Source: a virus. From it: DNA of 28,640 nucleotides. The notes below the pieces were generated by a model, which saw only the letters and a list, made by a program, of their open reading frames with translations, had not been told where the DNA came from and made no database searches. The first letter of the stretch is position 1; every line of letters starts with the position of its first letter. The stretch spans positions 1 to 28,640 of the IMG/VR virus record IMGVR_UViG_3300031539_000231; one strand, 5' to 3'. Of this stretch, positions 3,053 to 5,691 are shown in pieces. Made by a program: the position numbers and the translations under genes.

Positions 3053-3090
3053 GAAACGCCGTGCGGTTTGGCCACCAAGCACGGCGTTTC
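3053..3090. repeat. Perfect 12-bp inverted repeat in the leader of the replication module
   Basis: GAAACGCCGTGC (3053-3064) is the exact reverse complement of GCACGGCGTTTC (3079-3090). The 14-base loop contains a second small stem (TTGG-CCA-CCAA, 3068-3078). A ribosome-binding site (AGAGAGGA, 3091-3098) follows directly and the start codon is at 3104. There is no U-tract. It could be a 5'-end stabilising hairpin, a translational control element, or, as DNA, an operator at the transcription start. Confidence 0.75.
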
Positions 3091-3259: not shown

Positions 3260-3614
3260 CATCGCGGCGGCCTGGGAGGCCGGGGACGAAGCGAACGGCT
3301 GGACGATGCCACCACCCGAAAGGCGTGGACGACGCCACCCGATCACCGACGAACCCATCATCCCGCGCCTTCCAGGAAGCGCGCCGCCGGTCGATCGCGA
3401 GTCGCAGGCGATGATCGCCGCCATGTCGCTGCTGTCCATCCTGCCCGAAGAGGACCACGCTGCCGCAATGCAGCTCCTCGGCGGCAAGGCCTTTGCGCTC
3501 CCCGACGCGACCCGTCGCATGCTGCTCGAATGGTGCGACGCGCTCGCCCTGTCGTGCGCCGATGCGCCTCACCAGCTTGACGTGCTCAACCACTGGCGGG
3601 AGGCCTTGCGCTGA
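3246..3614 (+). CDS. Phage protein of unknown function before the replication initiator (122 aa)
   Basis: GTG 3246 overlaps the previous gene by 14 bases. Residues 1-45 are polar and Pro/Arg-rich (WTMPPPERRGRRHPITDEP), suggesting a flexible tail. Residues about 55-122 are helical (AMIAAMSLLSILPEEDHAAAMQLLGG, RMLLEWCDALALSC). No family is recognised. The stop shares one base with the start of the initiator gene at 3614, so a role in replication, for instance as an accessory loader, is possible by position only. Confidence 0.6.
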   Translation: MGARDIAAAWEAGDEANGWTMPPPERRGRRHPITDEPIIPRLPGSAPPVDRESQAMIAAMSLLSILPEEDHAAAMQLLGGKAFALPDATRRMLLEWCDALALSCADAPHQLDVLNHWREALR

Positions 3615-4426
3615 TGGGCTGGGCACGACTGGACGACGAGGCCGCCGAGAGCCTCAAGGTGCGGCGCGCGGGGACCCAGGCCGCCGCGCTCTGGTACGCG
3701 TCAATCACGTGGTGCGCGAAGCACCGCACCGACGGCGTCATCGAGCGCGAGCTCGTGTCAGACATCTGGCGCCCTATCGGCGAGGCCTTCGACCACGAGG
3801 CCGCCGCCGCACGACTGGTCGAGGTCGGGCTCTGGGATGAGCACCCGCAAGGGTACGCCGTCCACGACTTCCTCGACTACAACCCGAGCCGCGAGGAGGA
3901 GAACGCGCGCCGTGCTCGTGACACCCAACGTCAGCGCCGCCGCCGGTCTGGCGATGTCACGGGTACGATGCCCGTGCTCCGTCCAGCGGATGTCACGCCA
4001 TCTGTCACGCGTGACGTCCAGCGTGACACCGAGGAGACGTCCAGCGTGAGTCACGCTACCCCGACCCGACCCGACCCGACCAAGAGTGCTCGCGCGCCCG
4101 CACGCGTAGCACCATCCGGGCCAATCACGTCAGCGGCTCAGCTCCGGGCGCGGCTCGAAGCGGTCATCCGGCAGGCAACGGGGACCGGGCCCTTCCTCGA
4201 CCACCACCGAGGCCGAACCGAAGCGATGCTCAGTCGCCACACGCCGGAGGAGCTCTCGGCCGAGGTCGAGGCCTTCGGGGCGTGGCTCGCAGGCCTGGAC
4301 GTGGCGAAGCGCCCGTCCGAGCCGTTCCTGCGGTTCTGCGACCGGCTGGGATCGTGGGCGAAGGCCGAGCCTGAGCGGGCGCGACCCGCGATCCGCGTCG
4401 GACCGTACTTCGGGGGTGAGTCGTGA
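3614..4426 (+). CDS. Replication initiator/organiser-like protein
   Basis: The 270-residue protein has a typical phage replication-organiser layout. Residues 1-95 look like a winged-helix domain (LWYASITWCAKHRTDGVI, AAARLVEVGLWDEH) ending in the frequent phage motif VHDFLDYNPSREE at 83-95. A basic, low-complexity linker follows at about 96-170. Residues 171-250 form a helical C-terminal domain that could contact the helicase. Such proteins bind an origin and load a DnaB-type helicase, and the next gene is one, overlapping by four bases (GTGA). The DNA encoding the linker (about residues 114-148) holds the repeat cluster reported as a candidate origin, as in lambda O, where the iterons lie inside the gene. 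The family is called by pattern only. Confidence 0.65.
   Translation: MGWARLDDEAAESLKVRRAGTQAAALWYASITWCAKHRTDGVIERELVSDIWRPIGEAFDHEAAAARLVEVGLWDEHPQGYAVHDFLDYNPSREEENARRARDTQRQRRRRSGDVTGTMPVLRPADVTPSVTRDVQRDTEETSSVSHATPTRPDPTKSARAPARVAPSGPITSAAQLRARLEAVIRQATGTGPFLDHHRGRTEAMLSRHTPEELSAEVEAFGAWLAGLDVAKRPSEPFLRFCDRLGSWAKAEPERARPAIRVGPYFGGES
3953..4056. repeat. Iteron-like repeat cluster, candidate replication origin
   Basis: TGTCAC or its complement GTGACA recurs at 3955, 3991, 4003 and 4023, with one-mismatch GTGACG at 4011 and an outlying copy at 3918. GTCCAGCG recurs as a direct repeat at 3981, 4016 and 4039; the last two lie in a 14-base repeat (GACGTCCAGCGTGA, 4013-4026 and 4036-4049). 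Two palindromes are present: GTCACGCGTGAC (4004-4015) and GCGTGA-G-TCACGC (4044-4056). The cluster lies in the linker-coding part of the initiator gene. Confidence 0.5.
4061..4080. repeat. Tandem CCGAC repeat, four copies
   Basis: Four exact copies of CCGAC follow the iteron-like cluster and encode Thr/Arg/Pro/Asp residues of the initiator linker. They could be part of the origin or simply slippage in low-complexity coding DNA. Confidence 0.7.
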
Positions 4427-5691
4427 GCGGGGACCGCGTCACCGAGGCGGCGCTGCTCGGCGCGACCCTGCGAGCTCCGCGCGACATTTTCCGCGTGGAT
4501 GCCGTGCCGGTTGCTGACGACTTCTGGGATGCGCCCACGGCTGAGGCCTGGCGCGTCGCGTGCGCCCTCCTGGCCGACGGGAAGGCCTTGGGGCTGGACA
4601 CGCTGCTCGGAGCCCTGGCGGGACGTCAGGACGCCGTGGATGCGGCGCGAGCGGCGTGGATGGCGTCCAGCGTGCCGGACCGTGGCGCGGTGGAGCTGCT
4701 CTGCACACAGGTGCTCGAGGCGAGCCGTCGTCGTCGACTGCGCGCCGCGCTGCTCGAAGAGGTCGCGCGACTGGACCGAGGCGAGACGTCGGCGGCGGTC
4801 GTGGCGAGCGTCGAGGCGAAGGGGCTGGAGATCGTCAGCGGCACGGACGCGTGCGCGCCGGAGTCCGTGGCTGACATCGCCGAGACCGTGTGGAAGATCG
4901 ACGACGACCCTGCGAAGGCTTCGCGCATCCGGACCGGCATCCGCCAGCTCGATTGGGTGTGCGAGCACGGATGGGGCCGCGGCGAGGTTCACGTCATCGC
5001 CGGCCGGCCAGGCATGGGCAAGAGCGCGTTTGCGGGCCATCTCGTGAAGGGCATGGCGCGCAACGGGCATCCGGCGATCGTGGCGTCGATCGAGATGAAG
5101 CGCGAAGCGTGGGTGAGGCGGTACCTGAGTGGCGACCGTGAGCGGGACCGAAAGGCCTTGAAGGGTCTGCCGCTCTGGATCTTCGACCCCGGCACTCTGA
5201 CATCGCCCGCGCTTCGGGCCATGGCTCGACGCTTCGTGGTGACCCGAGGTGTGCAGGTCGTGGTGGTGGACTATCTCCAACTCATGAAGAGCGGACTCAA
5301 GACCCGGTCGCGCGAGGAGGAGGTCGCCGAGGTGAGCCGGTCACTCGTCGCGATGGCGAAGGATCTCGACGTGCTTGTGATCGCGCTCGCTCAGCTCAAC
5401 CGCGGCTCCGAGAAGGCGGCGGACAAGCGTCCGCACATGTCGGACCTTCGAGAGAGCGGACAGATCGAGCAGGACGCGCACACGATCACGATGCTGTACC
5501 GAGACGAGTACTATCACCCGTCGACCGACGCGACGCGGGATGTCGTCGAGCTCCACCTGCGGAAGAACCGCAGCGGCGCAGCAACGGACCCGAACGAGCC
5601 GATCCTTGCGCGCTTCGACAAAGCCGCGATGCGGTTCACGACGATGGAGCAAGACGAGTGGACGGCGTACGCGATGGCGGTGGGCGGATGA
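4423..5691 (+). CDS. DnaB-type replicative DNA helicase
   Basis: The protein unwinds DNA ahead of the replication fork as a hexameric RecA-fold ATPase. In the 422-residue product the Walker A motif is GRPGMGKS (residues 194-201), the Walker B strand is VVVVDYLQLM (279-288, Asp283), and the DnaB-family motif LAQLNRGSE with the following SDLRESGQIEQDA lies at about 323-354. The N-terminal 110 residues are a helical domain like the DnaB N-terminal collar, and the whole protein is a little shorter than bacterial DnaB (about 470). GTG 4423 overlaps the initiator stop. The order initiator then helicase is the classic phage replication pair. All ATPase motifs look intact. High confidence in the family. 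Confidence 0.95.
   Translation: MSGDRVTEAALLGATLRAPRDIFRVDAVPVADDFWDAPTAEAWRVACALLADGKALGLDTLLGALAGRQDAVDAARAAWMASSVPDRGAVELLCTQVLEASRRRRLRAALLEEVARLDRGETSAAVVASVEAKGLEIVSGTDACAPESVADIAETVWKIDDDPAKASRIRTGIRQLDWVCEHGWGRGEVHVIAGRPGMGKSAFAGHLVKGMARNGHPAIVASIEMKREAWVRRYLSGDRERDRKALKGLPLWIFDPGTLTSPALRAMARRFVVTRGVQVVVVDYLQLMKSGLKTRSREEEVAEVSRSLVAMAKDLDVLVIALAQLNRGSEKAADKRPHMSDLRESGQIEQDAHTITMLYRDEYYHPSTDATRDVVELHLRKNRSGAATDPNEPILARFDKAAMRFTTMEQDEWTAYAMAVGG

Follow-up and report, generated by a model that had tools for sequence, protein, structure and literature searches.

In lambda and Stx phages, the replication origin occupies the central part of the initiator gene (O) and contains several iterons that bind the initiator; additional iterons make the protein longer, and in lambda the iterons are paired with an AT-rich tract that is crucial for unwinding (PMC7466680). 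Iteron plasmids such as RK2, F and R6K combine a winged-helix Rep protein with clustered sites beside an opening region, and bacterial oriC places DnaA boxes, a double-strand cluster, beside the DnaA-trio, a short-period repeat that is read single-stranded (PMC10797057). For the mycobacteriophage RepA prophages Miko and Rachaly, an origin has been proposed to lie within repA or directly ahead of it, with no repeated motifs reported in the regions that those authors examined (PMC7157519). In-gene origins are already known in lambda and its relatives, and suspected for the mycobacteriophage RepA prophages. Here, we describe a locus at which clustered repeats, a C-rich pentanucleotide array and a hairpin lie within the linker-coding part of a phage initiator gene. 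We consider it likely that this region, positions 3917–4112, is the phage's replication origin, located inside the initiator gene and working by the binding, opening and linker scheme set out below.

The window that we analysed is an entire IMG/VR record of 28,640 bases. Its replication initiator gene (3614–4426, + strand) encodes 270 amino acids, and a profile search matched residues 1–163 to the replication initiation protein family phrog_2447 (E 1.9e-33); homologues are annotated as RepA-like replication initiators. The stop of this gene (4426) is overlapped by the start of a DnaB-like replicative helicase gene (4423–5691, + strand; PF03796, E 3.2e-61; phrog_19, E 2.5e-79). An AlphaFold2 model of the initiator comprises, in order, a winged-helix domain (residues 1–90, 3614–3883, + strand; pLDDT mostly >90), a long basic helix (residues 93–111, 3890–3946, + strand), a disordered linker and a helical C-terminal part. 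Comparison of the model by VIA-align returned winged-helix matches, the top one to an ORC subunit (Z 8.2), which shows only a common fold. A Foldseek search with the model gave no confident match, and a sequence comparison with the PDB gave no credible relative. The lambda O family was absent among the profile matches of the initiator, an absence that is no proof of non-homology. Elsewhere in the window, a gene for a Mom-like DNA modification protein occupies 725–1486 (PF25680, E 1.5e-38), and a perfect 12-bp inverted repeat, GAAACGCCGTGC / GCACGGCGTTTC, with a 14-nt loop lies at 3053–3090, upstream of small ORFs that precede the initiator gene.

An earlier note on this DNA had pointed to iteron-like repeats in the initiator gene as a candidate origin, and the sequence features that it listed are all present: TGTCAC at 3955, 3991 and 4003, GTGACA at 4023, GTCCAGCG at 3981, 4016 and 4039, and two palindromes, GTCACGCGTGAC (4004–4015) and GTGAGTCAC (~4046–4055). 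They lie, as it had proposed, in the coding region of a low-complexity linker, which is repetitive and modelled as disordered (residues 121–170, pLDDT ~50), and there is no AT-rich stretch beside them, the surroundings being ~70% GC. Two further copies had been overlooked, GTGACA at 3918 and GTCACG at 4050. A word search placed half-sites at 3917–3922 (CGTGAC, − strand), 3956–3961 and 3992–3997 (both GTCACG, + strand). GTCACGCGTGAC is a full palindromic iteron with half-sites at 4004 and 4010, and GTGAGTCAC includes the half-site at 4050. Two of the three GTCCAGCG copies fall within an exact 14-nt direct repeat, GACGTCCAGCGTGA (4013–4026 and 4036–4049, + strand), the first copy of which overlaps a CGTGAC half-site at 4022–4027. 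In all, the GTCAC half-sites span 3917–4055. The putative binding unit is the palindromic GTCAC half-site, rather than GTCCAGCG.

We made the comparison with synonymous codons that the earlier note had suggested, using 5,000 recodings drawn from the window's own codon usage. All three words were in excess (P ≤0.0002): GTCACG/CGTGAC occurs six times in a 110-nt region against 2.07 expected, a count reached in 0 of 5,000 samples; TGTCAC/GTGACA four times against 0.37 (P 0.0002); and GTCCAGCG three times against 0.36 (P 0.0002). Across the whole 28.6-kb record, the density of GTCACG/CGTGAC peaks in this region.

Directly 3′ of the iteron words, and missed by the earlier note, is a pentanucleotide array, (CCCGA)4CC (4060–4081, + strand), the only chain in the record of at least four CCC at 5-nt spacing. 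Its 22-nt period-5 run was reached in 0 of 5,000 synonymous resamplings. The array is translated within TPTRPDPTK, and the opposite strand is G-rich. Because the period is five and the codon three, a CCCGA array encodes rotations of PDPTR in all frames; the corresponding peptides are PVPSR for CCCGT, PIPSH for CCCAT and PNPTQ for CCCAA. Four nucleotides past the end of the array begins an imperfect hairpin on the − strand (4086–4112; 11 bp with a 1-nt bulge; DNA fold −10 kcal/mol, z −2.1).

We then compared this locus with its relatives. Sixteen annotated phage relatives mostly have the same order of elements but different words and pentamers: GTCAC in MenE, Verity and Gudmit, GTAAC in EMoore, GTTC/GAAC in MrSmee and TGTCCCC in prophiT36. 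SF3, also among the 16, has no array. For a wider survey, loci were picked by N-terminal homology alone, 80 from IMG/VR and 80 from bacterial genomes (Actinomycetota by title), giving 134 initiator genes after dereplication. The query was a 7-row alignment; the window protein alone yielded no relatives, and a 21-row alignment was too diverse. Against a null in which synonymous codons are permuted within each gene, chains of at least four CCC at 5-nt spacing occur in 83 of 134 genes (8.4 expected). At least three tandem copies of period 5 are found in 52% of genes, against 1.5% in the null; other periods from 4 to 15 reach 0–4%, and only 5 and its multiple 10, which accounts for the 4%, stand well out. 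In the fetched loci there are 83 chains of at least four CCC in 108 kb of initiator gene and one in 578 kb of flank. The window array, with a length of four, is at the low end of the range. No CCC chain longer than two is present in 33 of the 134 surveyed relatives, and most whole contigs checked for such relatives also lack an array elsewhere in the genome.

Arrays were also sought in IMG/VR by DNA scans that made no reference to genes. CCCGA arrays lie within an initiator homologue in 46 of 80 cases among the matches listed, CCCGT arrays in 48 of 80 fetched loci and CCCA[AT] arrays in 16 of 80 fetched loci. With a control pentamer matched in composition, there were 17 stretches in total, and none of the 17 lay in an initiator. 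Many arrays from these scans fall in no recognisable initiator, and five contigs carry at least one CCCGA array, in an ORF or between genes, and have no recognisable replication genes. Seven loci have CCCAA or CCCAT arrays in initiator or primosomal genes of other families (phrog_9474, 270, 1701, 9327; DUF1376), which suggests that the array extends more widely than actinophages. Its extension to phage replication proteins at large was only partly borne out. Of nine hand-picked unclassified array ORFs, eight matched replication or primosome families, as against ~3 of 52 CCCGA/CCCGT ORFs in a larger set, and for CCCAW ORFs the commonest replication families had five members each among 50 scanned, 11 of these being controls.

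The orientation of the array is not constant. The G-rich strand is the coding strand in 14 of 48 CCCGT initiator loci; these inverted arrays therefore encode a wholly different peptide, and a fixed strand polarity is therefore not general. Eleven initiator homologues with an inverted array have GGGAC on the coding strand and TGRDG in the protein; several of them have what looks like an HNH-nuclease-type segment ahead of the linker. Inverted arrays are not accounted for by any strictly strand-polar model. In a single odd case, at 4784 of locus L071, an initiator-like ORF has a CCCGA array on its non-coding strand, flanked by GTCGGAACTGAGTAC-type words.

One explanation for all these repeats would be selection on, or drift in, the protein: low-complexity linkers rich in V/T/R/D and R/P/D/T might generate them through amino-acid bias or slippage, and the linker is indeed disordered and repetitive; microsatellites also expand easily. 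This explanation fails badly against the codon nulls, all of which preserve the protein. Moreover, the CCC and the 5-nt step are kept while the NN positions vary (for example, CCCTTCCCTTCCCGACCC) and with them the linker peptides, which include RPDPT, SRPVP, SHPIP and TQPNP. Finally, the full module occurs as non-coding DNA in phages whose initiator is without the linker. In two contigs, L035 and L085, it lies in intergenic DNA, with GTTCG sites, five CCCGA and a hairpin, GTGAAACC-TAAC-GGTTTCAC, and the two stems differ by a compensatory C-G to A-T change; the L035 initiator, 6 kb from the module, has a short linker without an array. In L390 and L393, whose initiators have no array, the module consists of GTCAC sites, three CCCGA plus CCC, and a hairpin, ATCCCCTCTC-TTAC-GAGAGGGGAT. 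It lies ~60 nt or more past the stop codon of a gene that encodes an HECGH motif, the end of the ORF being 85 nt from the start of the array; we read this gene as ImmA/IrrE-like. Since in two lineages the module is non-coding and the initiator array-less, the constraint acts on DNA and not on protein, and in our view no other finding speaks as strongly for a function of the module as DNA. Together with the codon nulls, these cases largely refute protein-only and slippage explanations, to which we give almost no credence. We conclude instead that the linker is dictated by the DNA signal: because the module DNA is translated, it sets the disordered sequence (VTRD..., RPDPT...) that joins the DNA-binding and C-terminal domains, as is evident from the sequence and the model.

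The iteron words and hairpins of relatives are similarly constrained. Within the 130 nt upstream of the array, the top-ranking 5-mer or 6-mer is in excess of the codon null (p<0.05) in 36–37% of genes, against 4–5% for N-terminal and downstream control segments; this null is conservative, because the V-T-R-D protein is kept. Where GTCAC and GTGAC occur within 12 nt of each other, the gap is 2 or 3 nt in 41 of 41 pairs, and other half-sites have spacings of their own (TAAC-3-GTTA, GTTC-4-GAAC). A perfect stem of at least 7 bp is present within 45 nt after the array in 48% of genes, as compared with 4% in the null and 0% in a control segment. The hairpins start at most 1 nt from the array end in 36 of 47 cases, and all but one of the 47 have a loop of 3 or 4 nt, as all but one have a C-G closing pair (46/47 each). 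On the G-rich strand, 37 of 47 loops are GNA or GNNA (7% in the null); C(GNA)G and C(GNNA)G loops form unusually stable DNA minihairpins. The window hairpin may be a weak counterpart of these perfect minihairpins. As for base composition, only the ~10–20 nt past the array reach 58% AT in relatives, falling then to 45%.

Palindromes and hairpins could instead belong to a transcription or RNA element, the palindromes being an autoregulatory operator and the C-rich tract with its hairpin an mRNA signal, for instance a regulatory hairpin or a site at which Rho loads. Operators are typically palindromic dimer sites, hairpins and C-rich, G-poor RNA commonly mark RNA signals, and TAAC and TGAC loops would be UNAC tetraloops in RNA. 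Yet the site is mid-gene, and the TAC/TTC triloops and TACC/TAGC/TGCC loops are better matched by GNA/GNNA on the DNA strand than by UNAC/UNCG in RNA. Arrays that are inverted relative to the gene, and the array 6 kb from the initiator in L035, also speak against this explanation, which we consider unlikely. A reading of the hairpins as UNCG RNA tetraloops was rejected, as perfect stems leave triloops.

Counting only words strictly downstream of the residue's codon, we found that residue 107 (Gln in the window, 3932–3934) follows the iteron class: in the survey, GTCAC goes with Q in 25 of 29 cases, GTTCG with M in 18 of 21 and TGTCC with K in 3 of 3. The blind-scan loci, which were fetched separately although some phages may be shared, gave 12/14, 5/6 and 10/10, respectively, in an ungapped comparison. 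Among 42 proteins thinned to <60% N-terminal identity, which removes shared ancestry only partly, mutual information with the iteron word was highest for column 107 and second highest for column 103 (p 0.001 each; residue 103 is encoded at 3920–3922). Both residues belong to one helix, at a distance of four positions, and their combinations (103+107) are T+V or N+Q with GTTAC and E+K with TGTCC. From this covariation we infer that the basic helix binds the iterons. The tracking of the initiator's helix by the iteron word also bears on whether the same protein might use this DNA for partition, packaging or recombination and not as an origin. Iteron clusters are known at partition sites too, and one array-bearing ORF from the blind scans matched ParB-like families; against this, the array lies consistently within replication initiators of several PHROG families, and helicase or loader genes adjoin. 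We therefore consider such a role very improbable.

The codon-null excess, the covariation of iteron and helix, and the separability of the module as a unit from the gene are the grounds for reading the site as an origin. The best-supported reading is the one put forward in the earlier note, of an origin inside the gene whose linker-coding part contains the sites bound by the initiator, with the amendments that the span it gave was too short and that the unit is not GTCCAGCG. In the scheme that we propose, the initiator would bind palindromic GTCAC(N2-3)GTGAC with the basic helix located just after the winged-helix domain, as the covariation suggests. The resulting nucleoprotein complex would open the adjoining CCCNN array, the G-rich strand would be kept apart by the GNA/GNNA-capped minihairpin and GGG tracts, and the C-rich strand would offer a landing place for the DnaB-type helicase of the next gene; these last three steps are the least secure. 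Array and hairpin would thus serve opening and strand capture. We favour sequestration of the G-rich strand by the hairpin, GGG tracts and possibly, with at least four tracts, a quadruplex, so that the helicase loads on the opposite strand. By analogy with the DnaA-trio, a filament-like read-out with a 5-nt step would be about as likely. A minimum of cumulative GC skew near the repeats, which the earlier note had thought worth seeking, was not seen: the record minimum is at 1750, with only an inflection at ~4250. From there the skew climbs steadily to ~9000, a rise that would fit rightward replication from the linker without proving it.

On balance, we lean towards regarding the CCC array at exact 5-nt steps, with its abutting GNA/GNNA minihairpin, as an undescribed origin element that takes the place of the AT-rich tract in origins of actinophages and some other phages, whether within the initiator gene or outside it, and that is coupled to an iteron helix code. 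We found no description of a CCCNN array and minihairpin at a phage origin, or of such a code, in the literature searched, which covered few subscription journals and so speaks only weakly for novelty. For many actinophages and prophages, the origin would become locatable from sequence alone, the widespread RPDPT/SRPVP linkers would be explained as translated DNA signals, and a two-residue recognition code for phage initiators would be open to experiment. Also raised is the question of how the strands separate at a GC-rich origin that has no AT-rich tract.

The site is like that of lambda in that clustered repeats, beyond codon chance, lie within the initiator gene. It is unlike lambda in that no AT-rich tract adjoins it, a C-rich pentamer array (with a minihairpin in many relatives) being present instead, and in that the half-sites are short palindromes with a proposed basic-helix read-out, with no O-family match seen. 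The comparison with Miko and Rachaly is one of actinophage initiators, theirs being the RepA of parABS plasmid-prophages. The DnaA-trio is a 3-nt motif by an AT-rich unwinding element, whereas the window array has a 5-nt step and an invariant CCC, is GC-rich and belongs with an unrelated initiator. As in iteron plasmids, a winged-helix initiator is combined with clustered sites next to a proposed opening region. Plasmid oriV iterons are longer direct repeats, of ~17–22 bp, and the plasmid opening region is AT-rich; the window has short palindromic half-sites, and its longest exact direct repeat is one 14-nt pair. The best reading is thus of a lambda-like in-gene origin in which a CCCNN array and minihairpin stand in for the AT-rich opener, this different conserved partner accounting for the lack of an AT-rich tract.
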